Positions 45,701 to 57,358 of a stretch of DNA of 64,000 bases are shown one piece after another. Within the stretch, counting starts at the first letter, position 1. The number at the start of each line of letters is the position of its first letter. The stretch comes from Streptococcus infantarius subsp. infantarius ATCC BAA-102 (GTDB taxonomy: Bacteria; Bacillota; Bacilli; Lactobacillales; Streptococcaceae): the NCBI RefSeq assembly GCF_000154985.1, contig NZ_DS572693.1, positions 62,001 through 126,000 of the forward strand, given 5' to 3'. The position numbers and the translations under genes are program-made. Below the pieces are notes generated by a model. That model worked only from the letters and a program-made list of their open reading frames with translations, was not told the DNA's origin and did no database searches.

Positions 45701-46840
45701 TTATATTGAATTGAGTATATCGACAACTTCAGTTCGCATATTTTTGGTAATATGGGTGTAAATTTGAATGGTTGTTTTTGAATCAGAATGACCAACCCTG
45801 TCCATAATTGCTTTTAAAGGGACACCCTTTTCAGCCAGGAAACTAACAAGCGTATGCCTAAAAATATGACTTGTTAAATGTTTAGGGATAGGGTTTGAGA
45901 GTCTATTGTTAGCAGCACGGATTGATTTGTTGAATGAGTTGTCTTGAATGGGTATGCCGTTCCTGCTAACGAATATATAACCTGTTTTCTTACAACTTTG
46001 GCTAGTGTCTTCTTCTAATTTATTTAAGAGTTGAACTTCATTTAAAATCTCCCGTTCCCTCTCTGTTAGAAGAGTCTCACGCCAGCTTGAATTTGTTTTA
46101 GGAGTTTGTTTTTGAGAATTTTCATAGCCACTAGTCATGTAATCTAAGGTGCCATGAATTTCTATATACTCTTCTTTAATATTTTCAGGTCGCAATGCAA
46201 TTGCTTCACCAAATCGGCATCCATTGTAAACCATAAATTCTGCAAGCAATGCAATCTTTTTTGAAACACTATGCCTATTCATTTCTTTTAATAGTCTGTA
46301 TAGCTCATCTTTTTCAAGATATTTTTGTGTTATATTTTCAAAATCTTCAATTGTTTTGGGAGGTTTCGAAAGTTTAACGCCAGTTGCAGGATTTTCCGAA
46401 ACATATCCGATACTGATCGCATAATCAAAAGTTTGTTTAAAGATTTGTTTTATACGTTTTTTCTTATCGAAGCTACCTGGGACGTCATCGACTAAGTTTT
46501 GTAAAAATTTAGTAGTTACTTTTGAAAGTAATACCTTTTCATCAATCACTTTCGTCAATCCTTTTACTTTGTACTCAATTGTTTTTTGAGAAGTAGGTTT
46601 AAGGCTTGGTTTGTGATGATTCCACCATTCGTTTATAATATCAACTAACTTTGCATCTGTAGTGGTTAGTTTGGCTAGTTTTTCTTTTATTTTTCTATCA
46701 AGGATTCTTTGTGCTTCTTTGCGCGATCTTGGTGTGTCGCGGTCCATTAAAGTTGAAACTTTTCTCCACTCCCCAGTGTATGGGTGTCTATATCTTTCAA
46801 CAAAATTTATTTTTCCACTTTTATGGTTTTCAATCCACAT
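45701..46840 (-). CDS. int: Phage tyrosine integrase
   Basis: This 379-residue tyrosine recombinase integrates and excises the prophage. The N-terminal arm-binding domain (about 1-60, KINFVERYRHPYTGEWRKVS) and core-binding SAM-like domain precede the catalytic domain. Arg lies in NGCRFGEA, His-x-x-Arg in SHIFRHTL, His in VGHSDSKTT and the nucleophile in QIYTHI (Tyr at about 364). GAGG precedes the ATG on the minus strand. It is the leftmost phage gene, reading toward the host junction. Confidence 0.95.
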   Translation of the reverse strand: MWIENHKSGKINFVERYRHPYTGEWRKVSTLMDRDTPRSRKEAQRILDRKIKEKLAKLTTTDAKLVDIINEWWNHHKPSLKPTSQKTIEYKVKGLTKVIDEKVLLSKVTTKFLQNLVDDVPGSFDKKKRIKQIFKQTFDYAISIGYVSENPATGVKLSKPPKTIEDFENITQKYLEKDELYRLLKEMNRHSVSKKIALLAEFMVYNGCRFGEAIALRPENIKEEYIEIHGTLDYMTSGYENSQKQTPKTNSSWRETLLTEREREILNEVQLLNKLEEDTSQSCKKTGYIFVSRNGIPIQDNSFNKSIRAANNRLSNPIPKHLTSHIFRHTLVSFLAEKGVPLKAIMDRVGHSDSKTTIQIYTHITKNMRTEVVDILNSI

Positions 46841-46870
46841 TTGTTAATACCTCATTTCTATGGTAAAATG

Positions 46871-46912
46871 GGTATAGTAAAGAGGCCTACAGTATGCAGG
46901 TTTTTACTATAC
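46871..46912. repeat. Inverted repeat upstream of int
   Basis: GTATAGTAAA and TTTACTATAC (10 bp each) flank a 20-bp core in the int leader. TTTTTC follows on the plus strand, so it resembles a terminator for leftward-facing flow and includes the int -10 region. Confidence 0.5.
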
Positions 46913-46934
46913 TTTTTCATTGTCTCTACACTCA
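46903..46934 (-). promoter_or_regulatory. Candidate int promoter
   Basis: Minus-strand TTGAGT, an 18-bp spacer and TATAGT. The -35 lies inside the 46,923-46,960 inverted repeat, so a protein bound there could control int. Confidence 0.45.
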
Positions 46935-46966
46935 ATTTTTGGCGAAGGCGAGTGTAGAGATTTTTA
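46923..46966. repeat. Perfect 11-bp inverted repeat, operator or terminator
   Basis: TCTCTACACTC (46923-46933) and GAGTGTAGAGA (46950-46960) with a 16-base spacer, then TTTTTATT on the plus strand. It may be an operator over the int promoter or a terminator. The bases after each hairpin (TTTTTACTATACTTTTTCA and TTTTTATTGTACTTTTTTA) are near-identical direct repeats. Confidence 0.6.
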
Positions 46967-46994
46967 TTGTACTTTTTTAGTGAATGTGTTAAAA

Positions 46995-47000
46995 TATAAT
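46995..47000 (+). promoter_or_regulatory. -10 element of the candidate small RNA
   Basis: TATAAT at 46995-47000 lies about 7 nt before the 5' arm of the small RNA helix. The -35 is poor. Confidence 0.5.
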
Positions 47001-47004
47001 TAAC

Positions 47005-47097
47005 AAGATAACTTGCGAAGGATTAACGTTGTGTTCCCGAATGGGAGTAAGTCAAAGGACGAGAATTCACAGATGCCTGGGGTTATCTTATTTTTTT
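47005..47097 (+). ncRNA. Candidate structured small RNA convergent with the DUF3644/HEPN gene
   Basis: AAGATAAC (47005-47012) at the inferred 5' end pairs with GTTATCTT (47082-47089), which is followed by ATTTTTTT. The closing helix thus doubles as terminator. Inside are a TCCC/GGGA hairpin and a TGTG/CACA helix. A -10 TATAAT lies just upstream. The RNA of about 90 nt ends on the stop codon of the minus-strand DUF3644 gene. No convincing ORF is present. It resembles, in size and placement, the structured RNAs found near abiF-type HEPN genes, but no homology has been shown. Confidence 0.55.
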
Positions 47098-48077
47098 GTC
47101 CTCTTTTTCAAGTTTTCTACGAATGTTTCAGGGTTCCGTTCAATCTCTTCAATGATAAACTCACAGAAAGCTGGAGCGTAGCTATATCGATTACCGATTT
47201 TATAGTGGTAGCAATAGCGTCCATCTTTCTTAATATCGTAAAATGCATTAAATAGTTGTAGGTCGTTTGTTGTAAACGGCCTTTTTTGCTTTTCACCACT
47301 TACTATTTTTGTTAACAAAATCCCTTTCGCTCTTAAACGTTTATTAACAATTTTTATAACTTCCTTAGTAGTCAGTGGGTATACTGCATTTGGGTCTTTA
47401 ATTTCTCGGAGTATGCCGACACTTGTTTCAGCACCATTGTCTAACTTAACTGCTAAATCAGCATCTTGTTTTCGCTTAGTGATATAGAATCGTGTTTCTA
47501 CTGGGACAGCATAGTCAGAATTACTAGCAGAAATTTCACTTTCAATCTTTGCTTGTTCAGCTAGTAAACGTTCTGCCATTTTTGGGGAATATTTAGCTTT
47601 AATTTCTTCCTGATTAAGTTGGTCGATACGGACAGATAAAGTCAGGAAATTTTGTGCAATTTGTTTTGTGATATCTTCCTGGTGGAATTCTTGCATTTTA
47701 GAAATATAATTAGACACACAAGCTTGGAACAATGGCGCATAGATGTGCTCATAATCTTCTGTTATAAAGTGAGTGCTAGTGTTTCTAAGTTCGATAATTT
47801 GGACAAGGTTTTTTCTCAACGATCCATGTTTATCTGGAAATACTGTTTCTACTGCATTTTCCAATGATATAGTTCGGTCTTTGCTGTCCTTAAAGTAGAT
47901 AGCTTCCTCACTGTCATTATTAATGATATGAGCCTTTAACATCAACTCCCAAGCGTTGCAAATAAAGAAACTAAAGCCTTCAATCCGATATTTAATAGTC
48001 GGCTTATTATAGATTTCAAGCCCCATGATAAAAGCTTCAATACTTTTATCGACTAATCGTTTTGCTAAATTTTCCAT
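47088..48077 (-). CDS. DUF3644 domain protein with HEPN ribonuclease motif
   Basis: This 329-residue protein matches the DUF3644 pattern: an N-terminal helical region (FFICNAWELMLKAHIIN) followed by ELRNTSTHF. RNTSTH (98-103) fits the HEPN nuclease motif R-(N/H)-x3-H seen in abortive-infection and Cas13 RNases. The C-terminal half (about 200-329) is basic and looks like an RNA- or DNA-binding tail ending KKRTKK. It sits between int and the repressor, the usual place of prophage defence cargo. GAAAGGAT precedes the ATG. A small RNA candidate lies convergent at its 3' end. Function is inference. Confidence 0.75.
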   Translation of the reverse strand: MENLAKRLVDKSIEAFIMGLEIYNKPTIKYRIEGFSFFICNAWELMLKAHIINNDSEEAIYFKDSKDRTISLENAVETVFPDKHGSLRKNLVQIIELRNTSTHFITEDYEHIYAPLFQACVSNYISKMQEFHQEDITKQIAQNFLTLSVRIDQLNQEEIKAKYSPKMAERLLAEQAKIESEISASNSDYAVPVETRFYITKRKQDADLAVKLDNGAETSVGILREIKDPNAVYPLTTKEVIKIVNKRLRAKGILLTKIVSGEKQKRPFTTNDLQLFNAFYDIKKDGRYCYHYKIGNRYSYAPAFCEFIIEEIERNPETFVENLKKRTKK

Positions 48078-48140
48078 GCTATCCTTTCTGAAATATATTT
48101 AGTTTCATCCATGTGTTCTCCTAAAACCTTAATAATATTT

Positions 48141-48260
48141 TTATTCTTTCCTATTCTCCTCAATCCATTTTTCGATTTTTTCTAATTGTTCATCAGTTAA
48201 TGGATTGTTATCGATATGTTCAAGTAGTTCTTGAACAAGTTCCCTAAAATGGTTAGTCAT
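48141..48260 (-). CDS. Small acidic protein of 39 residues
   Basis: The ORF MTNHFRELVQELLEHIDNNP (1-20) continues with LTDEQLEKIEKWIEENRKE. It is entirely charged and helical and is preceded by AGAAGGGAT at a suitable distance. It lies upstream of the DUF3644 gene on the same strand. A small acidic partner or antitoxin is one possibility, but no family was recognised. Confidence 0.6.
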   Translation of the reverse strand: MTNHFRELVQELLEHIDNNPLTDEQLEKIEKWIEENRKE

Positions 48261-48317
48261 AAATCAATATCCCTTCTAACTGTTTAGCTTAAAAAGAACA
48301 TTTGTACGTTGATAGCT

Positions 48318-49112
48318 TTAATCTTCTAAACTATAATCATTTACTGTAATTTGAATAGTTGAAAAAGTTTTATCTGTTGTAAATTCAAGATTTCGTTTCT
48401 CGTTAGCAGCCCAGTTATTTTCATAAATTGGTTGAGTATCAACGGTAGTTCCCTGATCATCAATTAACTTGATATTTAGAGATAAATATTCAAAATTCAA
48501 CTGAGTAGTATTTTCAGCAGTAGCAGTATAGATATAATATGAAGCAGATTCGTCTGAATTCGCTTCATCCAATGTAAATGTGAGAGAGTCAGCAAATGAT
48601 TTTATTGTATCTTCATTTTTGTTCTTTGTTTGAACTTCTTTTCCAGATGCTAACAATTCGTCTAAAATACTTTGGTTTTTTTCAGATACTTCAATTTTTT
48701 TGATATCATTGATTGTAATTAATTTCGAAGTTCTAGAATCATAATGTTTTTCCCAATTATCATAAAATGAATCTGAACCATACGTTTTAGCAACTTTTAA
48801 ACCATTTTTTAGTTCATTTATATAAGCTAAAGCAGCTTCTTTAAGTTTGCTGTCTTTAAATTTAAGATCTTGATATTTTTCAATAACATCAAGCTCTGTC
48901 TGAGTAGCTGTTTCGTATCCTTCTTCAGTCATTACAACGTCAGCATTTGCTTTATCATCAGTATATGTCCATCTGGCATCTAACGCCTTTCCTAAATCAG
49001 TAACAAAATCATTATCATAATATTTCACTTCTTTTTTGGTTGATGTTGTTCCACAGCCAGCAACAATAATACTAACAAATAATAAAGATATTACTAAAAA
49101 CATTCTTTTCAT
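48318..49112 (-). CDS. Prophage lipoprotein with FxLYD-like C-terminal domain
   Basis: This 264-residue protein has a type II signal peptide (KRMFLVISLLFVSIIVAGC, lipidated Cys20). A helical middle (about 75-150) follows. The beta-rich C-terminus (about 165-264) contains NFEYLSLNIKLIDDQGTTVD, like FxLYD/DUF5067 domains. Lipoproteins encoded between int and repressor in streptococcal phages, such as Ltp of TP-J34, block DNA entry of related phages. This protein is unrelated in length to Ltp, so that role is only suggested by position. GGAG lies 8 nt before the ATG. Confidence 0.75.
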   Translation of the reverse strand: MKRMFLVISLLFVSIIVAGCGTTSTKKEVKYYDNDFVTDLGKALDARWTYTDDKANADVVMTEEGYETATQTELDVIEKYQDLKFKDSKLKEAALAYINELKNGLKVAKTYGSDSFYDNWEKHYDSRTSKLITINDIKKIEVSEKNQSILDELLASGKEVQTKNKNEDTIKSFADSLTFTLDEANSDESASYYIYTATAENTTQLNFEYLSLNIKLIDDQGTTVDTQPIYENNWAANEKRNLEFTTDKTFSTIQITVNDYSLED

Positions 49113-49139
49113 TTTTATTTCTCCTATAATTGATAAAAA

Positions 49140-49343
49140 TTATTTACTTTTAAAGGTTCTACCGCAGTTATTACAGTGCCAGTTGTTTTTTCCGTTCTTA
49201 CCGATAAGTCCAAGTAGGACGAGTGGCCAAGAAATTAAAAATCCAATACAACCAACACAACCATTGAAATTTTTTCTGTCCTGATGCATAAACTGAATAT
49301 TGGTGCTTCTGCAATATGGACAGCGTTTAGCAAACAATCCCAT
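49140..49343 (-). CDS. Small zinc-ribbon membrane protein
   Basis: This 67-residue protein has two CxxC pairs, CPYC (8-11) and CNNC (57-60), likely forming one zinc ribbon. They flank a hydrophobic segment (about 32-48, CIGFLISWPLVLLGLIG). It is translated in the lysogeny block between the lipoprotein and the repressor. The ATG follows GAGAAAAAAAG. Function is unknown; similar zinc-ribbon proteins are common as prophage cargo. Confidence 0.7.
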   Translation of the reverse strand: MGLFAKRCPYCRSTNIQFMHQDRKNFNGCVGCIGFLISWPLVLLGLIGKNGKNNWHCNNCGRTFKSK

Positions 49344-49395
49344 CTTTTTTTCTCCATTCTCAGCTTTTAGTGTGGTTCAGTATTTGCACAATTAT

Positions 49396-49596
49396 TTATT
49401 CTTTTGCCATAGAGGCGATAATGATTTTAGCAACGTTTTCTTTCTCTTTTTCGGTCATCGGTGGCTCGTTATGGTCAGCTACTGAATATTCAATAGGGTG
49501 CCATTCACCGTTGACTTTAATCCATTCACGACGTCTGTTACAATGACAATCTAAGTCATGGCAGGTAACTTCCATTGGTCTAGTTTCTTCGTTCAT
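49396..49596 (-). CDS. Hypothetical phage protein of 66 residues
   Basis: A cysteine/histidine cluster CHDLDCHCNRRREW (about 12-25) and an acidic C-terminal helix (MTEKEKENVAKIIIASMAKE) are visible. GGGAG eight bases upstream picks ATG 49596 over an in-frame GTG nine bases earlier. The start lies just beyond the repressor stop, so the two are cotranscribed. No family was recognised. Confidence 0.65.
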   Translation of the reverse strand: MNEETRPMEVTCHDLDCHCNRRREWIKVNGEWHPIEYSVADHNEPPMTEKEKENVAKIIIASMAKE

Positions 49597-49598
49597 TC

Positions 49599-50381
49599 TT
49601 AACACTCCCTATAGACGTCAACAACTTCGCCGATTGTACGCACATCGTTTTCTTCCGAAAGTTGAATATCATCATATTCTTTGTTAAGTGACTCTAAGCG
49701 GTCGCTTTTTAGTTTCTTGACGTAGTTTTCACCATCAACTTTAAAAATGCCGATTTTGTTTAGGTCAACTTGATTTTTCAATTTAATAAAAAGAAAATCG
49801 CCGTTTTTGATTTTAGGCTCCATTGAATGGCCGACTACAATCGCGATAGTGTCATATTCGCTTTCGTCTGGGATTTCATCTTCGTAGAAATCTACCATAG
49901 TGTCATAGTCGTCCTCTTGCCAGTAGCCAGTACCGGCTGAAACCTTACCGGGAACGGGTAAGCTAACACGCTTTCTAGTTTCGTATTCGGCACGTTTTTC
50001 GCAAATATCAAGGGCTCTACCGTCTTCCTCTGCCAAAAGCTTCTCGGAAACCTGTACAAGCTTATCCTTGCGATTGTCGTTTAACTTATTGTAGTTAGAC
50101 AGTAAAATCGCTTGGCGAGGGTCAAAGTTGATTTTAGATGAAATGTCACTTTTTTCAGATTTATCTTCGATTAAATCAGACTTATTTACATTGAAGTAGT
50201 TTGCCAAAAGTTCTATTTTACCAATCCTTGGATAGGTAATACCTTTCAACCAATCTCTAACAGTAGTATATTTTAAATCTAAATCAGAACAAAGGGTATT
50301 TCTATCAATTCCTTTTTTATTCATATAGTAAGCGAGGTTTTTTGAAAAAATTTCTTTATTTTTGACACTTTTTTGGGTCAT
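49599..50381 (-). CDS. CI-like repressor with S24 (LexA-type) self-cleavage domain
   Basis: This 260-residue lysogeny repressor has an N-terminal XRE helix-turn-helix (about 10-65, DRNTLCSDLDLKYTTVRDWL). The linker leads to an S24 peptidase domain with the Ala-Gly cleavage site in VSAGTG (149-150). The catalytic Ser lies in GHSMEP (Ser186) and Lys in YVKKLKSD (Lys222). It should be inactivated by RecA filaments after DNA damage, inducing the phage. AAGGAGGT precedes the ATG. Its promoter overlaps operator 1. Confidence 0.94.
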   Translation of the reverse strand: MTQKSVKNKEIFSKNLAYYMNKKGIDRNTLCSDLDLKYTTVRDWLKGITYPRIGKIELLANYFNVNKSDLIEDKSEKSDISSKINFDPRQAILLSNYNKLNDNRKDKLVQVSEKLLAEEDGRALDICEKRAEYETRKRVSLPVPGKVSAGTGYWQEDDYDTMVDFYEDEIPDESEYDTIAIVVGHSMEPKIKNGDFLFIKLKNQVDLNKIGIFKVDGENYVKKLKSDRLESLNKEYDDIQLSEENDVRTIGEVVDVYREC

Positions 50382-50402
50382 ATGCTTACCTCCTTGCCTA
50401 GT

Positions 50403-50408
50403 ATTTTA
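50403..50408 (-). promoter_or_regulatory. -10 of the repressor promoter (PRM-like)
   Basis: Minus-strand TAAAAT with a TTTACT -35 17 bp upstream. Operator 1 covers the -10/spacer, so the repressor can control itself. Confidence 0.6.
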
Positions 50409-50422
50409 CGTTAAAAACGCAA
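50406..50422. promoter_or_regulatory. Operator 1 of the lysogeny switch
   Basis: TTACGTTAAAAACGCAA is a degenerate copy of the 17-bp operator (arms TTGCG/CGCAA). It overlaps the repressor promoter. Confidence 0.65.
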
Positions 50423-50447
50423 AAAAGTAAATAAGAAAATAAAAAAA

Positions 50448-50464
50448 TTGCGGAAAAAACGCAA
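50448..50464. promoter_or_regulatory. Operator 2 of the lysogeny switch
   Basis: TTGCGGAAAAAACGCAA has perfect TTGCG/CGCAA arms and a 7-bp centre. It lies between the divergent promoters. Confidence 0.75.
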
Positions 50465-50471
50465 AAAATTC

Positions 50472-50500
50472 TTGACATTGCGGTTTAACCGCAGTATAAT
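50472..50500 (+). promoter_or_regulatory. Early lytic promoter (PR-like) with operator 3 as its spacer
   Basis: TTGACA (50472-50477) and TATAAT (50495-50500) are both consensus. The 17-bp spacer (50478-50494) is exactly the palindrome TTGCGGTTTAACCGCAG. Repressor bound there must exclude RNA polymerase. Confidence 0.88.
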
Positions 50501-50549
50501 AAACTCGTAAGGTTGAGATAGACCTTAACAAAAACAGGAGGTACAGCTA

Positions 50550-50648
50550 ATGGCTAAACATAACAAAAAGCCTAAACGCAAAGAACTAGAAGTCGAAATC
50601 AAGATTCTTTGGTTTAAGCTTAGATTCAAAAACATTATTGAATGGTAG
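50550..50648 (+). CDS. Small basic phage protein of 32 residues
   Basis: The ORF is MAKHNKKPKRKELEVEIKIL followed by WFKLRFKNIIEW. It is the first gene of the early transcript, with AGGAGG 7 nt before the ATG. It is highly basic with an amphipathic C-terminal half. It occupies the cro position but has no helix-turn-helix. Function is unknown. Confidence 0.65.
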   Translation: MAKHNKKPKRKELEVEIKILWFKLRFKNIIEW

Positions 50649-50657
50649 TTCAATAAA

Positions 50658-50686
50658 GGAAGCATAAGCTTCCTCCCCTTCGGGGG
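50658..50686 (+). other. Two tandem RNA hairpins, one with a UUCG tetraloop
   Basis: GGAAGC-ATAA-GCTTCC (50658-50673) is followed directly by CCCC-TTCG-GGGG (50675-50686). UUCG with a C-G closing pair is an exceptionally stable tetraloop. No T-run follows, so this is more likely an RNA-stabilising or folding element than a terminator. It lies 43 nt upstream of the CRISPR-like repeat. Confidence 0.6.
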
Positions 50687-50728
50687 TGTGGTTATAGTTT
50701 AACATATTTAGTTGTACCTTCGCAAGAA

Positions 50729-50764
50729 GTTTTAGAGCTGTGTTGTTACGAATAGTTCCAAAAC
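50729..50764 (+). CRISPR. Solitary type II-A CRISPR-like repeat (36 nt)
   Basis: The 36 bases begin GTTTTAGAGCTGTGTTGTT and end GTTCCAAAAC. They match the type II-A repeat used with S. thermophilus CRISPR3 and S. mutans Cas9 at 34 of 36 positions, as I recall that repeat (differences at repeat positions 20 and 26). There is one copy, with no cas genes and no second repeat nearby. It lies in the early phage transcript, in sense orientation, between a 32-aa and a 52-aa gene and five bases before the ribosome site of the latter. The 20-30 bases upstream occupy the position of a spacer. Confidence 0.85.
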
Positions 50765-50781
50765 AAGAAAGGAGTAGAAAT

Positions 50782-50940
50782 ATGAAATGGAAGAAGTTTC
50801 TTTTTGGTGATATTCATTATAAGAATGAATCAGCAGACGGAAATCAAGAAGTGGAATTCAAATTAAAAGGTGGGTTAATTCCTAATTTGGTTTTGCTAGG
50901 CTTGATTATTGGATTGATTGCATGGATAGTAGTGAGGTAA
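50782..50940 (+). CDS. Small phage membrane protein of 52 residues
   Basis: A charged N-terminus (MKWKKFLFGDIHYKNESADG) is followed by one membrane helix (about 31-50, LIPNLVLLGLIIGLIAWIVV). AAGGAG at 50769-50774 selects ATG 50782. Longer upstream frames run into the CRISPR-like repeat and are not credible. Pairing of the repeat with a host tracrRNA and cleavage there would affect its 5' leader. Function is unknown. Confidence 0.7.
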   Translation: MKWKKFLFGDIHYKNESADGNQEVEFKLKGGLIPNLVLLGLIIGLIAWIVVR

Positions 50941-50946
50941 AAAACG

Positions 50947-51102
50947 ATGGCAATAAACGGAATAATATCTGTAGAAAATGTTAAATTAATAAAAATTACT
51001 TATCGAAAAGGAAACGGAACAAAAGAAAATCCTGCTAGGGTTGTTTCACAATTTTGGAATCAAAAAAATGAAATGGTATTTGAAATTGACCCGGCTTCTT
51101 AA
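50947..51102 (+). CDS. Small phage protein of 51 residues
   Basis: The ORF starts MAINGIISVENVKLIKITYR and ends FEIDPAS. It has alternating hydrophobic and charged residues typical of a small beta protein. GTGAGG precedes the ATG. Its stop overlaps the stop of the opposing DUF4145 gene by four bases, so the two converge without a terminator. No family recognised. Confidence 0.6.
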   Translation: MAINGIISVENVKLIKITYRKGNGTKENPARVVSQFWNQKNEMVFEIDPAS

Positions 51103-51803
51103 TTATCTCGTCTATCAATAGCTTTTCTGTAAGATTCAGGCAAAGAATCATAAACGCTTTTAATTTTTTTAGGCTGTGAAATCCTATTATCAACAATCAA
51201 ATTGACAAAAGTTAGAAGTGAGGCTGCAAGTTCTTTGTTATCTTTCAAGTCAATTTGCCCAGGGTGAACAGCGTTATTTCCGACTACGCGGACGCTATCT
51301 AGCATTTGTTGGATTTCAATTGGCATCCCTTGCCTAACTAAATATCCTATTTTATTGTTTAAATCTTTCCCCTCGGCTTTTAAGTGATCTACAAGTTTTT
51401 CAATAGCTAAACGCGATAGAGCAGCAGAAGAACGTGGGGATTTATCGAGAATTTCACTTGCTTCAATATAGATTTCTTTGACATTATCAGGCATATCTTG
51501 ATTTGGGGAAGGTACTCCTAAAATCTTAATTGGATAAAGTAGTTTTTCGCTATTTTCTAAAACTGATATAGCTTCATTCTCATGTATTGTTTTATTATCG
51601 GTTAACCAAATTGAATATTCTTGACACGCTTGACATTTTGCGATAATCATAAAAGGAGTTTCTATGTTTCTAAATGGATTGAAAAAAACTGATATAGCTC
51701 TCCATTCGTGTGAAGCAAAGCCTCCGCAATTCGGGCAAGTAAACGCTTTGGATTGTTCAATGGTATTGTAAAGATTTATTTCACTGTGATCAAAATATGT
51801 CAT
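51099..51803 (-). CDS. DUF4145 domain protein with zinc ribbon
   Basis: This 234-residue protein has an N-terminal zinc ribbon with CPNC (23-26) and CQAC (57-60). The helical C-terminal DUF4145 domain contains RVVGNNAVHPG (172-182). DUF4145 belongs to the HEPN superfamily and has been linked to RNA processing and restriction accessory roles. The spacing here (Arg-x7-His) differs from the canonical nuclease motif. I start at ATG 51803, where GGAG is 8 nt upstream; the longer frame starts inside its own -10 box. It is transcribed against the early operon. Confidence 0.75.
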   Translation of the reverse strand: MTYFDHSEINLYNTIEQSKAFTCPNCGGFASHEWRAISVFFNPFRNIETPFMIIAKCQACQEYSIWLTDNKTIHENEAISVLENSEKLLYPIKILGVPSPNQDMPDNVKEIYIEASEILDKSPRSSAALSRLAIEKLVDHLKAEGKDLNNKIGYLVRQGMPIEIQQMLDSVRVVGNNAVHPGQIDLKDNKELAASLLTFVNLIVDNRISQPKKIKSVYDSLPESYRKAIDRRDN

Positions 51804-51826
51804 ACTTTTTTCTCCAATCATTTTTA

Positions 51827-51832
51827 TTTCCA
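51827..51832 (-). promoter_or_regulatory. -10 element of the DUF4145 gene
   Basis: Minus-strand TATAAT (51832 to about 51837 region) lies about 30 nt before the chosen start. A dedicated promoter fits a gene expressed in the lysogen. Confidence 0.45.
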
Positions 51833-51860
51833 TTATACCATTTTAGAAAGGGGTGAGAAT

Positions 51861-52067
51861 ATGCAAAAAATGACGTTGAAAATGCTACGAGTAGCGAATG
51901 GATTAAATCAAAAACAAGCTGCTGAATTAGTCGGCGTTTCAGTAGACACATGGGGTCATTGGGAACGTTGCCAAACAGAACCAACTATCAGCATGGCTTA
52001 CCACATTGCCAATAAATTCAATATGAATTTAGATGATATTATTTTTTTACCTAATATTGCGGTTTAA
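51861..52067 (+). CDS. Cro-like XRE family regulator
   Basis: This 68-residue protein is almost only a helix-turn-helix: MLRVANGLNQKQAAELVGVS followed by VDTWGHWERCQTEPTISMAY. It is the best Cro candidate in the early region, though separated from PR by three small genes and the opposing DUF4145 gene. AAAGGGGTG precedes the ATG. Its last codons and stop (GCG GTT TAA) are part of a perfect copy of the repressor operator. Confidence 0.85.
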   Translation: MQKMTLKMLRVANGLNQKQAAELVGVSVDTWGHWERCQTEPTISMAYHIANKFNMNLDDIIFLPNIAV

Positions 52068-52073
52068 CCGCAA
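52057..52073. promoter_or_regulatory. Fourth operator copy on the stop codon of the Cro-like gene
   Basis: TTGCGGTTTAACCGCAA is a perfect 17-bp palindrome, the best match in the window to the operator in PR. It straddles the TAA stop of the XRE gene, 1.57 kb downstream of PR. Confidence 0.8.
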
Positions 52074-52089
52074 AAAGAAAGGAGCAAAC

Positions 52090-52221
52090 ATGAAACCAAA
52101 ACGTTATCCGTATAGCGGAAATAAAAAGCAACCTCATGAAGAGATTGCTGAGTTGAGATATGAGTTGAACGTTTTAAAAAATAATTTGTCAACTTTAGCA
52201 CATCAATTATTCAAAAACTAA
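52090..52221 (+). CDS. Small phage protein of 43 residues
   Basis: The ORF begins MKPKRYPYSGNKKQPHEEIA and continues with a coiled-coil-like segment (ELRYELNVLKNNLSTLAHQL). AAAGGAG lies 6 nt before ATG 52090. The ORF ends within the opposing gene at 52207. Function is unknown. Confidence 0.65.
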   Translation: MKPKRYPYSGNKKQPHEEIAELRYELNVLKNNLSTLAHQLFKN

Positions 52222-52425
52222 GTAACCATCATTGTTATCAATGACTTTATAACCTTGCTTCGAGGCTTCGGTGATAATTTCTGATTTTGACATTTCGTAT
52301 TCATCTAATGAAATTGTCGCACTTTTAGAATTAAGGAAATTAAAGCTAGCTTGTAGTGTTTCATCTAAATCTTTCCAACTCTTAAAAGATGTTTTTCGAC
52401 TTGGTTTTGGACTAAGTTTGCTCAT
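52207..52425 (-). CDS. Hypothetical phage protein of 72 residues, minus strand
   Basis: A basic N-terminus (MSKLSPKPSRKTSFKSWKDL) leads into an alpha/beta C-terminus (ITEASKQGYKVIDNNDGYLV). AAAGGAG precedes ATG 52425 by 8 nt, whereas the longer frame starts within that site. It reads against the early operon, so it is likely expressed in the lysogen. No family recognised. Confidence 0.65.
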   Translation of the reverse strand: MSKLSPKPSRKTSFKSWKDLDETLQASFNFLNSKSATISLDEYEMSKSEIITEASKQGYKVIDNNDGYLVFE

Positions 52426-52530
52426 AAACAGTCTCCTTTCCATAATATTTGACTTGCGATTTTCATAAGGAGGTAAGAGGTCCTATTTAATCGTTTGTCA
52501 TGAATCAATTATATCAGAAAGGATATAATA

Positions 52531-52577
52531 ACACAATATGTTGCGTTTTCAATACAATCAAAAACTATATATTGTGT
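52531..52577. repeat. Inverted repeat ahead of the second XRE gene
   Basis: ACACAATAT (52531-52539) and ATATTGTGT (52569-52577), 9 bp each with a 29-bp spacer. A TATAAT lies just upstream (52524-52529). This is a likely operator for the XRE protein encoded next. Confidence 0.55.
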
Positions 52578-52590
52578 TTTGGGATTGAGT

Positions 52591-52779
52591 ATGAAAAAAA
52601 CTTTAAGCAAGTTACTTATTGACAGAGGAATGACAGTCACAGAGTTAGCTAAAAAGACTGGTATCAGCTATAACACGTTGATGAACATCGGAAAGAGAGA
52701 CCTTTCTTTCAGTAGAATGGTGAAAATCGCTGACGTTTTAGAAGTCAGTTTAGACGAATTCAGAAAGGATAACACATGA
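52591..52779 (+). CDS. XRE family helix-turn-helix regulator
   Basis: This 62-residue protein consists of an XRE domain (KLLIDRGMTVTELAKKTGIS followed by YNTLMNIGKRDLSFSRMVKI). ATG 52591 follows GGGATTGAG. Its stop overlaps the start of the nuclease gene (ATGA), so the two are translationally coupled. The arrangement suggests that it regulates the nuclease cassette through the inverted repeat upstream. Confidence 0.85.
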   Translation: MKKTLSKLLIDRGMTVTELAKKTGISYNTLMNIGKRDLSFSRMVKIADVLEVSLDEFRKDNT

Positions 52780-53336
52780 ATAATTTAATTAACGTAACTT
52801 TAAATGAAAAACAAGAGTTTAGTTCTTTTGAAGAATTGTTTTTGTGGGCAGCTAGAGAAAAGCAAAAATGCAATTACAACTCACAACAAATCAAAAGGTT
52901 AAGAACTTTTATCAAAGATAAATATCTGAATAAGTTTCAAGGAACAATATATCTCATTGACTTTTTAGACTTGGAATTCATTCACGCTCTAGAATGTGAA
53001 AACAGCAGGGAAAATCGTGAAAAGGATATGCAGAGTTATATCTGTCAAAACTTCGAAACACTATTCCCTAATTTTGAATTCGTAAAAAGTGAATTTGTAA
53101 TAAAAAGTGGTCGAATTGACATTTTAGCTGAAGAAAAAAGCAGCAAGAGACCAGTGATTATTGAATTGAAAACAGATAATAAAAATCCGACTATTCAATT
53201 ATTAGCCTATTCAAAAGAATTTATCAATCCAATTTTAATAGGGGTTACCGAGAAGAAACTCGCCAATTCAAAAATGGACGACGATATTACATATTATGTT
53301 ATGAAAAATAAAAAAATGGAAGAGGTGATTAAATGA
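52776..53336 (+). CDS. PD-(D/E)XK nuclease of the NucS/DUF91 type
   Basis: This 186-residue protein has a helical N-terminal half and a C-terminal PD-(D/E)XK core: SGRIDILAEE (Asp115), VIIELKTD (Glu130, Lys132) and Gln141 in NPTIQLLAYSKEF. This matches endonuclease NucS-like domains. It overlaps an XRE regulator upstream and an antirepressor downstream, by four bases each. Role in phage biology is unknown. Recombination, host DNA attack and defence are all possible. Confidence 0.8.
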   Translation: MNNLINVTLNEKQEFSSFEELFLWAAREKQKCNYNSQQIKRLRTFIKDKYLNKFQGTIYLIDFLDLEFIHALECENSRENREKDMQSYICQNFETLFPNFEFVKSEFVIKSGRIDILAEEKSSKRPVIIELKTDNKNPTIQLLAYSKEFINPILIGVTEKKLANSKMDDDITYYVMKNKKMEEVIK

Positions 53337-54049
53337 ATGAGTTAATTCGTATAGATTTCAAAGGTGATAGTGCTACTGTCTCGGCTCGTGACTTATATAG
53401 AAGTTTAGAGGTTAAAACTCGTTTCAGTCAGTGGGTCGAGCAAAACTTCAAAATGTTTAAAGAGAACGAAGATTTTAGCTCTGTAGTTACAACTACACAG
53501 CAAAATCAATATGGCGGAGTTAAAAAATTACAAGATTACGCTGTTAGTATTCGCATGGCTGAACATTTAGCAATGATGTCTAAAACTTCAAAAGGGTACG
53601 AAGTCAGAGAATACTTCATTCAAGTTGAAAAGGACTTCAACAGTCCTGAGAAAATCATGGCTCGAGCTCTTAAAATTGCTGACCGTAAAATTATTAAACT
53701 TGAAGCAACAATTGAAGAGCAAAAACCTAAAGTTATCTTTGCTAACGCAGTCAGCGCAAGTCATACGTCTATTTTAGTCGGTGACTTTGCTAAGCTCATG
53801 CGTCAGAACGGCTTGAATTTTGGTCAGAATCGTATGTTTGCATGGCTGCGAGAAAATGGCTATCTAATCAGTCGCAAAGGCAAAAGTTGGAACATGCCAA
53901 CACAAAAAGCAATGGATTTAGGTCTGTTTGAAATCAAAGAAACGACTATCAATCATTCAGACGGTCATATCAGCATTAACAAGACACCTAAAATTACAGG
54001 TAAAGGGCAATTGTATTTTGCTGATAAGCTACTGAATAACATTGCTTAA
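53333..54049 (+). CDS. Phage antirepressor (AntA/AntB family with KilAC domain)
   Basis: This 238-residue protein has an N-terminal AntA domain (VSARDLYRSLEVKTRFSQWV, about 17-36). The C-terminal KilAC domain (about 140-238) contains VGDFAKLMRQNGLNFGQNRM followed by FAWLRENGYLI. Such proteins inactivate phage repressors by direct binding and promote the lytic cycle. It overlaps the nuclease stop codon (ATGA). A long inverted repeat lies just after its stop. Confidence 0.92.
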   Translation: MNELIRIDFKGDSATVSARDLYRSLEVKTRFSQWVEQNFKMFKENEDFSSVVTTTQQNQYGGVKKLQDYAVSIRMAEHLAMMSKTSKGYEVREYFIQVEKDFNSPEKIMARALKIADRKIIKLEATIEEQKPKVIFANAVSASHTSILVGDFAKLMRQNGLNFGQNRMFAWLRENGYLISRKGKSWNMPTQKAMDLGLFEIKETTINHSDGHISINKTPKITGKGQLYFADKLLNNIA

Positions 54050-54056
54050 TTAACCG

Positions 54057-54236
54057 TGCTTCTCAGACTGGTTGATACGGCTCTAGTAGGTGATTACTCA
54101 TAAATATCAATTTGACTATGTTTGATTTTCCTTTACCAATATAGATTTTTTAATCATTTACACGATAGTATCTCCTATTTATTCTTTAATCGGCTGAAAA
54201 GTGCCTACTAGGGCCATACCAGCCAGTCTGAGAGCA
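54057..54236 (+). repeat. Long imperfect inverted repeat (about 34-bp arms) after the antirepressor gene
   Basis: The left arm (54057-54091) starts TGCTTCTCAGACTGG and ends CTAGTAGGT. The right arm (54203-54236) starts GCCTACTAGG and ends CCAGTCTGAGAGCA. Arms pair over nearly their full length with a few G-T pairs and two bulges. The 111-base centre is AT-rich and non-coding. It could fold as one long RNA hairpin in the early transcript, or be a miniature element. Confidence 0.75.
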
Positions 54237-54237
54237 T

Positions 54238-54264
54238 AAAAAAACGACTGACGGCAATCAGTCG
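54238..54264 (-). terminator. Minus-strand terminator-like hairpin
   Basis: CGACTGA (54245-54251) and TCAGTCG (54258-54264) with seven A bases on the left, which read as a T-run on the minus strand. No minus-strand gene precedes it, so it may stop antisense transcription. Confidence 0.55.
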
Positions 54265-54315
54265 CATAACAAATAAAACTAAAGTAAATTATACCACATT
54301 AAAAAGGAGCACGCT

Positions 54316-54621
54316 ATGCCAAAGGTCGAAATAACTTACAAGGCTGTCGGTGTTAACGAAGATGCTGAATGGGGCGACTATGATCATCTCATGCAACGCT
54401 GGGAGGGCTTAACTAAATCAGTTGCGAAACAATGGGCAGCTGAAATGCGTGAGCATCCAGAATTTAGGAAATATGTCGACAATCCAACGCATAAAATTGT
54501 TTTCATCAATTATGAAGGTTTTGCACTTTTCGTAAAGTGGAAATCACGTAACAGATATTTATCAAAAAAAGAAACGTTAGCTGAAATGCTTAAGAACATG
54601 AAATTAGAAACAGGAGTTTAA
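54316..54621 (+). CDS. Hypothetical phage protein of 101 residues
   Basis: This acidic-basic mixed protein contains a tryptophan-rich segment (GDYDHLMQRWEGLTKSVAKQ) and ends with a helical KKETLAEMLKNMKLETGV. AAAAAGGAG lies 8 nt before the ATG. It opens the replication block after a 266-bp non-coding interval. Similar ORFs occur at this place in streptococcal phages. Function is unknown. Confidence 0.7.
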   Translation: MPKVEITYKAVGVNEDAEWGDYDHLMQRWEGLTKSVAKQWAAEMREHPEFRKYVDNPTHKIVFINYEGFALFVKWKSRNRYLSKKETLAEMLKNMKLETGV

Positions 54622-54622
54622 C

Positions 54623-54799
54623 ATGACACATTTAATTATCGCAGTCGCAGTTTTAGCGTTCGCTGAAGTAACTATATTAACAGTGTTCGGTAAACGAGCA
54701 CGTAAGAAAGAAGAACCAGTCAAACCTAATTATTCAGGTTGGGAAGCGAGTGCAATTGCATACAACCGTGCTCACGGTTTGCCAGACGATACGATTTAA
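54623..54799 (+). CDS. Small phage membrane protein of 58 residues
   Basis: The N-terminal helix (LIIAVAVLAFAEVTILTVFG, about 4-23) is followed by a basic stretch (KRARKKE) and a soluble tail ending NRAHGLPDDTI. AGGAG precedes the ATG, which lies one base after the previous stop. Function is unknown. Confidence 0.7.
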   Translation: MTHLIIAVAVLAFAEVTILTVFGKRARKKEEPVKPNYSGWEASAIAYNRAHGLPDDTI

Positions 54800-54809
54800 G
54801 AGGTACTAA

Positions 54810-54911
54810 ATGGAAAATGAATACTTTGACACAGACGAAATCATGCTAATCGGTTTTGACACAGATGGCTGGCACGGGTGCTGGGGCGCAAAAGAAGAAG
54901 AGGGTGATTAG
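54810..54911 (+). CDS. Small acidic phage protein of 33 residues
   Basis: The ORF is MENEYFDTDEIMLIGFDTDG followed by WHGCWGAKEEEGD. Its stop is directly adjacent to the GTG start of the replisome organizer. AGAGG lies upstream. Net charge is strongly negative. It is a possible DNA mimic or small regulator, without direct support. Confidence 0.55.
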   Translation: MENEYFDTDEIMLIGFDTDGWHGCWGAKEEEGD

Positions 54912-55796
54912 GTGGCTGATAATAAAAAATACTATTACTTAAAACTTAAAGAGAATTTCTTTGAGAGTGATGAAGCTATCATTTTGGAAAGTATGCCAGA
55001 TGGCTACATTTACAGCAATATCCTTTTAAAACTATATCTTAGGAGCTTAAAAAATGACGGCCTATTAATGTTCAATAATTTGATACCTTATAATGCTCAA
55101 ATGTTAGCAACCATTACACGTCATCAAGTTGGTACTGTTGAAAAAGCTATTCAAATTTTTCAGCAATTGAAATTAATTGAAATATTAGACAACGGTGCTA
55201 TCTATATGTCGAATATCCAAAATTTCGTCGGAAAATCAAGTAGTGAAGGCGACAGAAAAAGAGCTAAAAGAGCTCAAAACAGAGCAATCAGACAAACGTC
55301 CGGACAAATGTCCGACAAACGACCACCAGAGATAGAGATAGATACAGAGACAGAAATAAAGAAAGATATAGAGTTAAAGAAAGAGTTAGAACTAGAACCA
55401 GAAAAAGAAGAAAGATTTGTTGACATAGTTGAAGCGAATCTTGGTCGAGGTCTTGTTAAGTTTGAATACGATACGATGAACGATTATTTGATTAACAAAC
55501 ATGTATCAAAAGAGTTATTTCTTGAAGCAGTAAAAGTAGCAGTAGCTAACAATGTTCGCAAATTTAACTATATTAGTCGTGTTCTAGATAACTGGATTGA
55601 GAACGGTATTCAAACGGTAGAGCAAGCTTATCAAGCACAACGAGATTTCAAAGCTAAGAAAGCAAATCGTTATCAAGCAAATCAACCAGCCAAAAGCAAC
55701 GTACCTGATTGGGTCGATGAAGATTACAAACATGAAGCGACAGTAGACGAGCAAGCACAGCTTGAAGCACTAAAAAAATCTATGTTGGAGGACTAA
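54912..55796 (+). CDS. Phage replisome organizer / DnaD-like initiator
   Basis: This 294-residue protein has an N-terminal winged-helix Phage_rep_org_N domain (YYYLKLKENFFESDEAIILE, about 6-25, to about 125). A charged linker rich in Glu and Lys follows. The C-terminal DnaB_2/DnaD domain (about 180-250) contains NVRKFNYISRVLDNWIENGI. It should recruit the host helicase to the phage origin. Start is GTG after GAGGGTGATTAG. The linker-coding DNA is a purine repeat that may be the origin. Confidence 0.9.
   Translation: MADNKKYYYLKLKENFFESDEAIILESMPDGYIYSNILLKLYLRSLKNDGLLMFNNLIPYNAQMLATITRHQVGTVEKAIQIFQQLKLIEILDNGAIYMSNIQNFVGKSSSEGDRKRAKRAQNRAIRQTSGQMSDKRPPEIEIDTETEIKKDIELKKELELEPEKEERFVDIVEANLGRGLVKFEYDTMNDYLINKHVSKELFLEAVKVAVANNVRKFNYISRVLDNWIENGIQTVEQAYQAQRDFKAKKANRYQANQPAKSNVPDWVDEDYKHEATVDEQAQLEALKKSMLED
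55325..55415 (+). other. Purine-rich repeat, candidate phage replication origin
   Basis: Short AGAGATAGAGATAGAT-like and AAAGAAAGAT/AAAGAAAGAG units repeat inside the replisome organizer gene. Temperate siphophages often place their origin in this gene. Iteration is direct and the purine strand bias strong. Confidence 0.4.
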
Positions 55797-55798
55797 TT

Positions 55799-56053
55799 AT
55801 GAATGTGAAAGAAACAATTTTAAACCAACACAAAACTTTGAAACGTATCGAAGAACTACAAGAGTTTATGCACGGAACATCAACGCTAGCAATTGGGTTA
55901 CACAATGATGGGATTATTGAACAGCCAGAAGATAAATTGATATTCTTTGAAACAATGCACGATTTCTCACATATTCTTGAAGATGTGTTGGATGGTAAAG
56001 ATGTAGCAGAGGCAGTAGGTGATACATTATTTCCAGATGAGGACGAAGAGTAA
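55799..56053 (+). CDS. Hypothetical phage protein of 84 residues
   Basis: This acidic helical protein (NVKETILNQHKTLKRIEELQ at the start, ending LFPDEDEE) has no recognised domain. TTGGAGG precedes the ATG by 8 nt. Its stop overlaps the next start (TAATGA). It lies in the replication block between the replisome organizer and recT. Confidence 0.65.
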   Translation: MNVKETILNQHKTLKRIEELQEFMHGTSTLAIGLHNDGIIEQPEDKLIFFETMHDFSHILEDVLDGKDVAEAVGDTLFPDEDEE

Positions 56054-56274
56054 TGAAGATTGAATTATTACATGTAATCAACGGTTATCGCAAGTTACAT
56101 CTTGGTTTTTTCGACGATATGCACCAAGCGATTAAAGCACTCAAAAATCATGCATACGCTTATTCAGCTATTTCAGAACCACGCTTTAGAAAGTCAATGA
56201 GTGGAAATAGCATTCGCATTGATTATGGCGCTAAGACTTGCTATTACTTGCTAGAAGCTAGAAAGGTCAGCTAA
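56053..56274 (+). CDS. Hypothetical phage protein of 73 residues
   Basis: A small basic protein (MKIELLHVINGYRKLHLGFF to YYLLEARKVS) with no recognised motif. Start and stop overlap the neighbouring genes by single bases, so translation is coupled along the operon. Confidence 0.65.
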   Translation: MKIELLHVINGYRKLHLGFFDDMHQAIKALKNHAYAYSAISEPRFRKSMSGNSIRIDYGAKTCYYLLEARKVS

Positions 56275-56408
56275 TGCAACATGGATTATTTGGCGATTTT
56301 GATTACGATAATTGGCTAAGTACGTATGAGGACCACGAAGAAGTATTTCATTGTGATGAAGACGAGGCTTATGACCGCTGGAAAGATGATCAGCTAGAAG
56401 ATTGGTAA
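56274..56408 (+). CDS. Small acidic phage protein of 44 residues
   Basis: The ORF begins MQHGLFGDFDYDNWLSTYED and ends RWKDDQLEDW. About 40 percent of residues are Asp or Glu, and tryptophans are frequent. It starts on the stop of the previous gene (TAATG) and lies 12 nt before recT. Such acidic proteins in early phage operons can be DNA mimics, but nothing here proves that. Confidence 0.6.
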   Translation: MQHGLFGDFDYDNWLSTYEDHEEVFHCDEDEAYDRWKDDQLEDW

Positions 56409-56419
56409 AGAGGAAAAAA

Positions 56420-57358
56420 ATGACAACAGAATTAACGCAAAAACAAATTACATCAAATGTAGCTAACCGAATTGAGGAAATGAAGAGTGAAGGTTTACTA
56501 GTAGCGCCAAATTACAGCGTAAGTAATGCTCTAAGCTCTGCCTATTATGCTTTGACGAATTCAAATAGCGGCAATTTGTTAGGAAAATGTACGCAAGACA
56601 GCATTTACAACGCCTTGCTTGATATGGTTACACAAGGTTTAAGTCCAGCTAAAACTCAATGCTATTTCATTCCTTACGGGAACAAAGTCAAACTAACACG
56701 TTCGTATTTTGGAACAATGAAAGTTGTAAAACAATTACCTGAAGTTAGAGACATTTATGCCGAAGTTATCTACGAAGGCGATAACGTTGAAATTAAAAAC
56801 GTTGAAGGTCGTAAGGTGTTGGTAAAACACGATACTAATTGGCTTAATCAAGACAACCCAATTATCGGTGCTTACTGTATCATTGAAAAATTTGACGGTG
56901 AAAAGATTTTAACAATCATGACCAAAAAAGAAATTGATAAGTCGTGGTCTCAGTCAAAAAACAAAACTGTTCAAAATAATTTCCCGCAAGAAATGGCAAA
57001 ACGTACTGTCATCAATCGCGCCGCTAAACAATTCTTTAACACAAGTGACGATAACGACTTATTTATTGACGCTGTCAATCGAACTACAGCGAACGAATAC
57101 GATAACGATGATGACCGAGGCGTCAAAGATGTAACGCCAGAACAAGATGACGGCGAAAGCATTGATAGTTTTATCGGCGGACCATTGACAGAAGCGGTCC
57201 CTGAAGATCCAAAACAGCCTAAAGATGTGACGCCAAACGAAGACGCCTCTCAGGAGCTCACAGAAGCCCCAGAATCGGCTCAAATTTCAGAACCTGAAGA
57301 ATTACATGAACCAGAGCAAACAGAGCTATTTGAGCAATTAGGAGACCTATATGACTAA
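56420..57358 (+). CDS. recT: RecT family ssDNA-annealing recombinase
   Basis: This 312-residue single-strand annealing protein has the RecT core (about 30-205), with YNALLDMVTQGLSPAKTQCY followed by FIPYGNKVKLTRSYFGTMKV. The C-terminal third is an acidic, proline- and glutamate-rich tail that probably contacts other proteins. I start at ATG 56420 after AGAGGAA. The longer frame reads through the previous stop region. It overlaps the nuclease gene by eight bases, as a RecE/RecT-type pair. Confidence 0.92.
   Translation: MTTELTQKQITSNVANRIEEMKSEGLLVAPNYSVSNALSSAYYALTNSNSGNLLGKCTQDSIYNALLDMVTQGLSPAKTQCYFIPYGNKVKLTRSYFGTMKVVKQLPEVRDIYAEVIYEGDNVEIKNVEGRKVLVKHDTNWLNQDNPIIGAYCIIEKFDGEKILTIMTKKEIDKSWSQSKNKTVQNNFPQEMAKRTVINRAAKQFFNTSDDNDLFIDAVNRTTANEYDNDDDRGVKDVTPEQDDGESIDSFIGGPLTEAVPEDPKQPKDVTPNEDASQELTEAPESAQISEPEELHEPEQTELFEQLGDLYD

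Follow-up and report, generated by a model that had tools for sequence, protein, structure and literature searches.

The window analysed here is a 64-kb stretch of the genome of Streptococcus infantarius ATCC BAA-102, and its positions 45701-56800 are the start of Streptococcus phage Javan263 of the same strain, with 0 mismatches over 11,100 bases to the phage record (MK448721.1). The genes of this prophage run in the order integrase, CI/LexA-like repressor, antirepressor, replisome organiser and RecT. The subject of this report is a 36-nucleotide (nt) element in its early region: a solitary repeat of the type II-A CRISPR (clustered regularly interspaced short palindromic repeats) class, which an earlier note on this DNA had proposed as an RNA anti-CRISPR or a Cas9-redirecting RNA. 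The features (ORF, open reading frame; aa, amino acids) on which the argument draws are the following:

50729 to 50764, forward strand: solitary type II-A (CRISPR3-class) repeat; single match in the window, 0 in 100 shuffles, missing here in 24 of 24 related rows.
50724 to 50728, forward strand: AAGAA, left flank of the insertion, identical to the 5-mer after the repeat.
50765 to 50769, forward strand: AAGAA, right flank; with the repeat it forms a 41-nt insertion (sibling comparison).
50699 to 50728, forward strand: 30-nt potential guide in the spacer position, made of old phage leader; 30/30 identical in 10/10 sibling rows.
50472 to 50500, forward strand: early promoter (PR-like), TTGACA-17-TATAAT, 12/12 (promoter scan).
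50537 to 50550, forward strand: 5' strand of a 14-bp helix conserved in the leader, covering the Shine-Dalgarno sequence and start of the 32-aa ORF (17 aligned leaders).
50708 to 50721, forward strand: 3' arm of that helix, within the potential guide (predicted fold, alignment).
50550 to 50648, forward strand: 32-aa leader ORF, phrog_31919 (PHROGs match; conserved leader).
50657 to 50685, forward strand: two short leader hairpins (predicted fold).
50782 to 50940, forward strand: 52-aa ORF with a hydrophobic stretch, phrog_2253, its upstream AGGAG kept despite the insertion (read directly, PHROGs).
51833 to 51860, forward strand: second early leader, empty in Javan263, with a worn II-A-like repeat in related phages (sibling comparison).
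49599 to 50381, reverse strand: CI/LexA-like repressor (helix-turn-helix and Peptidase_S24, phrog_4).
45701 to 46840, reverse strand: prophage integrase, left end of Javan263 (domain scan; identity to MK448721.1).

Searching the window with a degenerate II-A pattern at up to 3 mismatches returned this repeat as the sole match, and none of the 100 shuffled windows matched. Together with a comparison with the common streptococcal (T15) repeat GTTTTAGAGCTGTGTTGTTTCGAATGGTTCCAAAAC, the search confirms the earlier note, which had placed a 36-nt II-A repeat here with 34 of 36 positions matching a known one: identity to GTTTTAGAGCTGTGTTGTTTCGAATGGTTCCAAAAC is 34/36, the differences being T20A and G26A. 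A pattern covering GTTTTAGAGCTGTGTTGTTTCGAATGGTTCCAAAAC matches 46 of 247 Streptococcus genomes, with at least two tandem copies of the repeat in 9 of the 12 loci opened. Relative to the C15 repeat of S. infantarius the agreement is 33/36, with C15T on top of the same two substitutions; in the part of PMC4466440 used here, the C15 repeat is that of S. agalactiae and has perfect matches in S. infantarius, S. lutetiensis and S. gallolyticus. The prophage repeat stands by itself, as the same note had held—no partner was found in the window at up to 3 mismatches. Its claim that cas genes are lacking holds for genes of cas9 size, there being no cas9 in the window and both ORFs of at least 1000 aa being AddB and UvrD/PDDEXK (AddA-like); the search did not extend to cas genes below that size. 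The element has the traits by which phage solitary repeat units (SRUs) are defined, namely a match to a known repeat, no second repeat or cas9-sized cas ORF, and an intergenic phage site behind a promoter.

That promoter is well placed to drive the repeat in the sense orientation, which bears out what had been proposed. The scan gave 3 promoter-like sites against 2.1 expected in shuffles, and the one at 50472-50500 is the only site to score 12/12. Between its hexamers lies GCGGTTTAACCGC, found again at 52058-52072, and these sites are presumably repressor operators. The repeat starts 229 nt past the -10 hexamer, beyond the 32-aa ORF and the two hairpins, and ends 17 nt before the 52-aa ORF.

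Other near-exact single repeats were also looked for beyond the window. A search of GenBank phages disclosed no other near-exact II-A single repeat (12 records, Javan263 alone identical), and the other four records covering at least 80% of the query were multi-copy Listeria at 80.6%. Among plasmids, one record matched, at 91.7% and in 5 places. The full degenerate pattern occurs in a single IMG/VR contig, which is the same prophage; its 5' half gave 5 stretches and its 3' half 9, all unrelated by eye with the exception of one array end. These tight patterns missed worn copies, which a later pattern scan found (see below). A genome contig collection, in which records near the genome of the window may be left out, gave 0 matches to the exact repeat and 0 to the guide. 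In the literature, the titles and abstracts retrieved mentioned no Cas9-class single repeat in such phages, with subscription journals and supplements outside the search, and such loci may stand in the lists of the SRU survey.

The repeat entered a leader that is otherwise conserved. Relative to its siblings, Javan263 has gained 41 nt—the repeat and a second AAGAA—just before the Shine-Dalgarno sequence of the 52-aa gene. Sibling leaders read ...TTGTACCTTCGCAAGAA and then continue directly with AGGAAG or AAGGAG and the ATG of that gene, whereas Javan263 interposes the repeat and AAGAA. From base composition, the chance of a 5-nt flank match is about 0.0014, and the blastn alignments of the best-aligned relatives end at or near 50728, the base preceding the repeat. 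The comparison covered 24 related rows, which are not independent: 7 named phages, 8 places in 6 of the 247 genomes and 9 IMG/VR stretches (L002-L008, L011-L018, L032, L033, L035, L036, L039, L041, L042, L045 and L051). In all, 49 phage records match the leader, 8 of which were opened; a 16-nt query retrieved 22 IMG/VR stretches, comprising 10 first leaders (9 empty, 1 carrier) and 12 stretches unrelated by eye. At the junction where Javan263 has its repeat, Javan231 holds several hundred bases of other sequence (L003:1724-2090).

The earlier note had looked to conservation among related prophages, and on this point the outcome is divided: the first leader carries the repeat in 0 of the 24 rows, but the same phage group has further, worn II-A-like repeats at a second early leader. 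Rescanning the 24 whole loci at up to 9 mismatches yielded one repeat, at another place in Javan169 (L007:2926-2961), where ATTTTAAAGCTATGTTGTTTTGGATAATTCCAAATT lies just before the Shine-Dalgarno sequence of the next early gene and agrees with II-A repeats at 27/36 positions; in 300 simulated 3.2-kb sequences the best match reached at most 25/36. By blastn, a II-A-like 36-mer was also found at this second leader in Javan454 (S. pyogenes) and Javan132 and, with an altered 5' end, in Javan37 and phiGBSVK-E2_GBSInt11.1 (both S. agalactiae). The pattern scan added 24 IMG/VR loci in 7 distinct forms matching at 24-27/36, siblings L032, L036 and L041 included; further positions are L126:1001-1036 and L127:1001-1036. 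Empty second leaders read TTATACCACAGAAAGG and filled ones TTATACCACAGAAA-36 nt-AGAAAGG. Relative to the empty siblings the repeat is a 36-nt insertion, and in 23 of the 24 IMG/VR loci a copy of AGAAA stands at either end of it. Separately, the satellite phage Javan624 (L128:1000-1035) has a II-A-like single repeat at another place, with a closer match of 31/36.

The worn copies also appear to follow their hosts. The diagnostic positions 12/21 are A/T in the S. pyogenes phage, as in what we take to be the S. pyogenes host repeat; the two S. agalactiae phages and Javan263 have G/C there. These bases agree with the host repeats, those of S. agalactiae and S. infantarius being given in the part of PMC4466440 used here. 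That the same anatomy occurs twice lowers the likelihood of chance and raises that of a common process or advantage. For predicted pairing with trans-activating CRISPR RNA (tracrRNA), the share of equally mutated random repeats pairing as strongly was computed for two partners, the S. pyogenes tracrRNA in the form we assume for it and that of the relative G039, in this order: 1.6% and 0.7% for Javan454, 3.9% and 2.5% for Javan132, and 5.1% and 1.1% for Javan37.

These comparisons bear on the idea that the repeat is a neutral relic, a host repeat inserted by chance recombination and devoid of function. The single lineage at the first leader and the three substitutions from the S. infantarius repeat fit such a history, as do the worn second-leader copies, which suggest decay; lone repeats can moreover be remnants of arrays, as in genome G225, where one lies between genes resembling lepA and ndk by eye at the place where G039 has an array. 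Against it, Javan263 keeps all 36 nt, in sense, at an early promoter and with the Shine-Dalgarno sequence preserved, and both the anatomy and host-matched bases return at the second leader; we regard a relic as an improbable account, if one to be reckoned with. A role at the DNA level—as a place where spacers are acquired or recombination occurs or, at the second leader, as a piece of the divergent gene's promoter—would suit the position of the second-leader element upstream of that gene. The Javan263 integrase is full-length at its usual end, and integration occurred beside a sugar-nucleotide dehydratase gene and not in an array, which leaves such a role very unlikely.

An RNA-level role requires a cognate system, and the close relatives give a mixed answer to the question whether one exists. 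Ranked by identity in the dehydratase gene that adjoins the prophage, the closest genomes are G001 and G245 (97%), G039 and G063 (96%), G098 (95%) and G090 (94%). Of these, G039 and G090 have long Cas9s and repeats of the same class as the phage repeat, in keeping with the earlier note's expectation of a type II-A system among relatives; G001, G063 and G098 have a single, short Cas9 apiece (frames of 1137-1157 aa, CRISPR1 class by length) and G245 has none. The subtypes listed for S. infantarius in the portion of PMC8841824 used here are II-A and II-C. With the G039 tracrRNA, the predicted pairing energy of the phage repeat (-39.7 kcal/mol) equals that of the repeat of G039 itself (-39.6 kcal/mol), and 2.6% of 5,000 random repeats with three substitutions do as well as the phage repeat; the G142 and G015 tracrRNAs give the same value as G039. 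No tracrRNA was found in G090, whose contig begins about 300 bases before cas9. The idea of a tracrRNA decoy tuned by mutation found no support: with the G039 tracrRNA, C15T and G26A help and T20A hurts, for a net of zero. Two other lone repeats came to light in the genomes. In G168, a perfect II-A repeat lies past the first codons of a helix-turn-helix-like frame by eye (L098:9428-9463), with no Cas9 by family search; in G142, one perfect copy outside the arrays adjoins the tracrRNA gene close to cas9 and is possibly a regulatory guide (L101, ~6745-6780).

Our best reading, to which we give a probability of roughly 0.4, is that the element is a host-matched type II-A CRISPR RNA (crRNA) mimic, one that pairs with tracrRNA and ties up Cas9 and so acts as an RNA anti-CRISPR. 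It is built on features legible in the DNA itself: the repeat, its clean insertion, the promoter, the predicted pairing with the tracrRNA of a near relative and the recurrence at the second leader with host-matched bases. The insertion would turn a strong early phage transcript into a mimic of host pre-crRNA. Once the early promoter fires, the transcribed repeat would pair with the host tracrRNA and be bound, and probably processed, by RNase III and Cas9—presumably a cognate Cas9 in the carrier strain. Cas9 and tracrRNA would in this way be titrated, diverted from the host guides that attack the phage. The resulting complex would hold a guide copied from the phage leader and would be unable to cut its maker, since the repeat puts GTT at the position of the protospacer-adjacent motif (PAM). 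The worn II-A-like repeats at the second early leader of the same phage group favour this idea.

What lies upstream of the repeat, in the spacer position, is conserved phage leader and not an acquired spacer. The earlier note had pointed to these bases for comparison with other phages; their 30 nt are identical in 10 of 10 sibling rows and are followed there by AGG in 7 (L033, L035, L036, L041, L042, L051 and SVep1) or AAG in 3 (L039, L045 and Javan227), whereas the carrier has GTT. The 10 rows amount to 5 distinct leaders, 4 of them with AGG, L032 having been dropped for sharing its IMG genome number with L033; Javan231 differs at 2 of 20 guide positions. No second guide site was found in the window at up to 3 mismatches. 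PAM preferences in the relatives would accommodate such targets: protospacers of G039, whose Cas9 has the PAM motif QSNLR, are followed by AAG, GAA and TAA (TAA with 2 mismatches), and G090 has an RKR motif and TGG. The G039 Cas9 can be aligned over its full length with Cas9 chains of known structure, which we take to be those of S. pyogenes. S. agalactiae and G039 have the same repeat, and S. agalactiae Cas9 uses NGG according to the part of PMC10256743 used here. None of 131 host spacers (126 distinct) matched the window or 15 phage loci at up to 5 mismatches.

These data raise the alternative of a kin-directed crRNA, in which leader and repeat form a one-spacer guide gene and the host Cas9 cuts co-infecting siblings while sparing the carrier, whose PAM has been replaced. 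Besides the sibling flanks, the unique guide site and the relatives' PAMs, precedents speak for it: messenger RNAs that contain repeat-like tracts pair with tracrRNA and act as guides for Cas9 (PMC8224270, in the part used here), viral mini-arrays against related viruses are known (PMC6858448, likewise in part), and the phage mini-array L118, described below, has a spacer that 31 of the 56 matched Streptococcus phage records share at 99% identity or better. On the other side, a match to kin follows from any insertion into a conserved leader, AGG comes from the adjoining Shine-Dalgarno sequence, the siblings represent just 5 distinct leaders, and 5' trimming would be required because no repeat lies upstream. 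At the second leader, 30 of 47 empty sites have the same 20-nt guide, followed by GGG in only 15 and GGA in the other 15, and these mixed flanks weaken kin-directed cutting as a common cause. We consider this alternative doubtful, though worth keeping in view; the second leader and its flanks raised the odds of the RNA anti-CRISPR and lowered those of both a kin-directed guide and a relic. An anti-CRISPR and a kin-directed guide are compatible in one molecule.

The remaining proposal of the earlier note, that the guide aims Cas9 at a cas or tracr promoter, found no support in the window and the cas loci of four relatives (the G090 contig starting about 300 bases before cas9). It would parallel the long tracrRNA form that reportedly represses cas genes, as Workman is said to have described in 2021, and draws on that analogy only. 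No seed of at least 9 nt with NGG was found in these sequences, and the longest seeds, of 7-9 nt, compare with up to 10-13 for shuffled guides; we hold such redirection to be extremely improbable. The guide bases have another conserved partner: a leader helix of 14 pairs across 170 nt, with 99.6% of 238 cells paired in 17 leaders against 32-47% in slid controls. The tool counted no two-sided pair changes, and shuffles reach the observed covariation values (one-sided variation). No Rfam family matched the conserved leader 50537-50721 at gathering score, and the helix is perhaps a translational or antitermination switch.

Several observations weigh against the RNA anti-CRISPR. The first-leader repeat is confined to one lineage, its guide is partly buried in the leader helix, and the early promoter is probably repressed in the lysogen. 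In G001, the nearest genome, the one Cas9 is short and a repeat of the phage type is lacking. Pairing with host tracrRNA, which the earlier note had invoked, matches the host's own repeat in G039 and falls short of host repeats with two other tracrRNAs: the phage repeat reaches -35.1 against -41.9 kcal/mol for the C15 repeat with the G021 tracrRNA (6.8 weaker) and -24.4 against -32.8 with that of G182 (8.4 weaker). T20A and G26A together cost pairing relative to the T15 repeat (-43.9 kcal/mol with G039), and T20A breaks a pair near what we take to be the RNase III cut. Among the worn copies, L036 (15% and 10% of random variants as strong) and Javan624 (36% and 18%) do no better than chance. 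Finally, no anti-CRISPR family was named for the neighbours scanned with Pfam, NCBIfam and PHROGs, a scan that did not take in every ORF and for which the anti-CRISPR coverage of the libraries was not checked; RNA anti-CRISPRs frequently have acr genes as neighbours, which is supporting evidence and no requirement.

In its broadest form, the proposal would be that streptococcal phages repeatedly took host II-A repeats into early leaders through a 5-bp-duplicating insertion beside the Shine-Dalgarno sequence, obtaining in one step a host-matched crRNA mimic with their own conserved leader as guide—blind to its maker through the replaced PAM, fitting kin, and able to disarm and redirect Cas9 with no spacer acquisition. 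We think this full combination unlikely as it stands. If true, it would provide a natural type II-A case of RNA anti-CRISPRs, a phage that distinguishes itself from its siblings through one insertion, and an unexplained way in which CRISPR repeats enter new sites and duplicate a few bases of the target. Elsewhere in the window, a prophage gene at 47088-48077 combines DUF3644 with a restriction-endonuclease-like domain (PF18740) and is a possible defence gene, and the host part contains a preQ1-II riboswitch (RF01054) at 729-841.

A phage locus of a related kind is the IMG/VR contig L118 (IMGVR_UViG_3300046592_000009, 2120-2220), where a CRISPR1-type repeat is followed by a 30-nt spacer and a truncated second copy, all between the terminase small and large subunit genes. 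Its spacer matched 56 Streptococcus phage records, 31 of them at 99% or more. In the two that were read, those of the S. thermophilus phages SW3 and P7631, it spans the beginning of the gene for the small terminase subunit and is followed by TAAGAAT, and the corresponding site of L118 itself is changed. TAAGAAT fits NNAGAAW, presumably the PAM. Like Javan263, L118 is a phage sequence with a repeat of the Cas9 class, a guide that fits related phages and an altered site of its own, but it differs in its arrangement of repeat, spacer and truncated repeat between terminase genes.

Among described systems, the closest are the SRUs, or RNA anti-CRISPRs (Racrs), of Camara-Wilpert 2023 (PMC10651486), in which single phage repeats inhibit type I and type V systems as RNA anti-CRISPRs; the shared traits are a lone, host-type, intergenic repeat borne by a phage behind a promoter. 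The portion of that survey used here reports 2,103 viral single repeats, with candidates of I-C, I-E, I-F and V-A tested and no type II example. The Javan263 repeat, a candidate of type II-A, lies outside the tested types and entered a conserved leader by a 5-nt-duplicating insertion. Virus-borne mini-CRISPR arrays (Medvedeva 2019, PMC6858448) likewise have guides that fit close relatives and not the carrier, as in Javan263 (AGG or AAG in 10/10 rows, GTT in the carrier), and in the excerpts of PMC6858448 and PMC11656645 used here arrays directed against relatives are a known kind. Their spacers lie between two repeats with an array leader, whereas Javan263 has one repeat, no array leader, and a guide that is its own leader and not an acquired spacer. 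In the noncanonical crRNAs of Jiao 2021 (PMC8224270, in the part used here), tracrRNA pairs with a repeat-like tract of a messenger RNA and the bases upstream become the guide, an arrangement that Javan263 would share; its tract, by contrast, belongs to a phage transcript and comes close to a perfect CRISPR repeat, of which the corresponding 5' end is unchanged.
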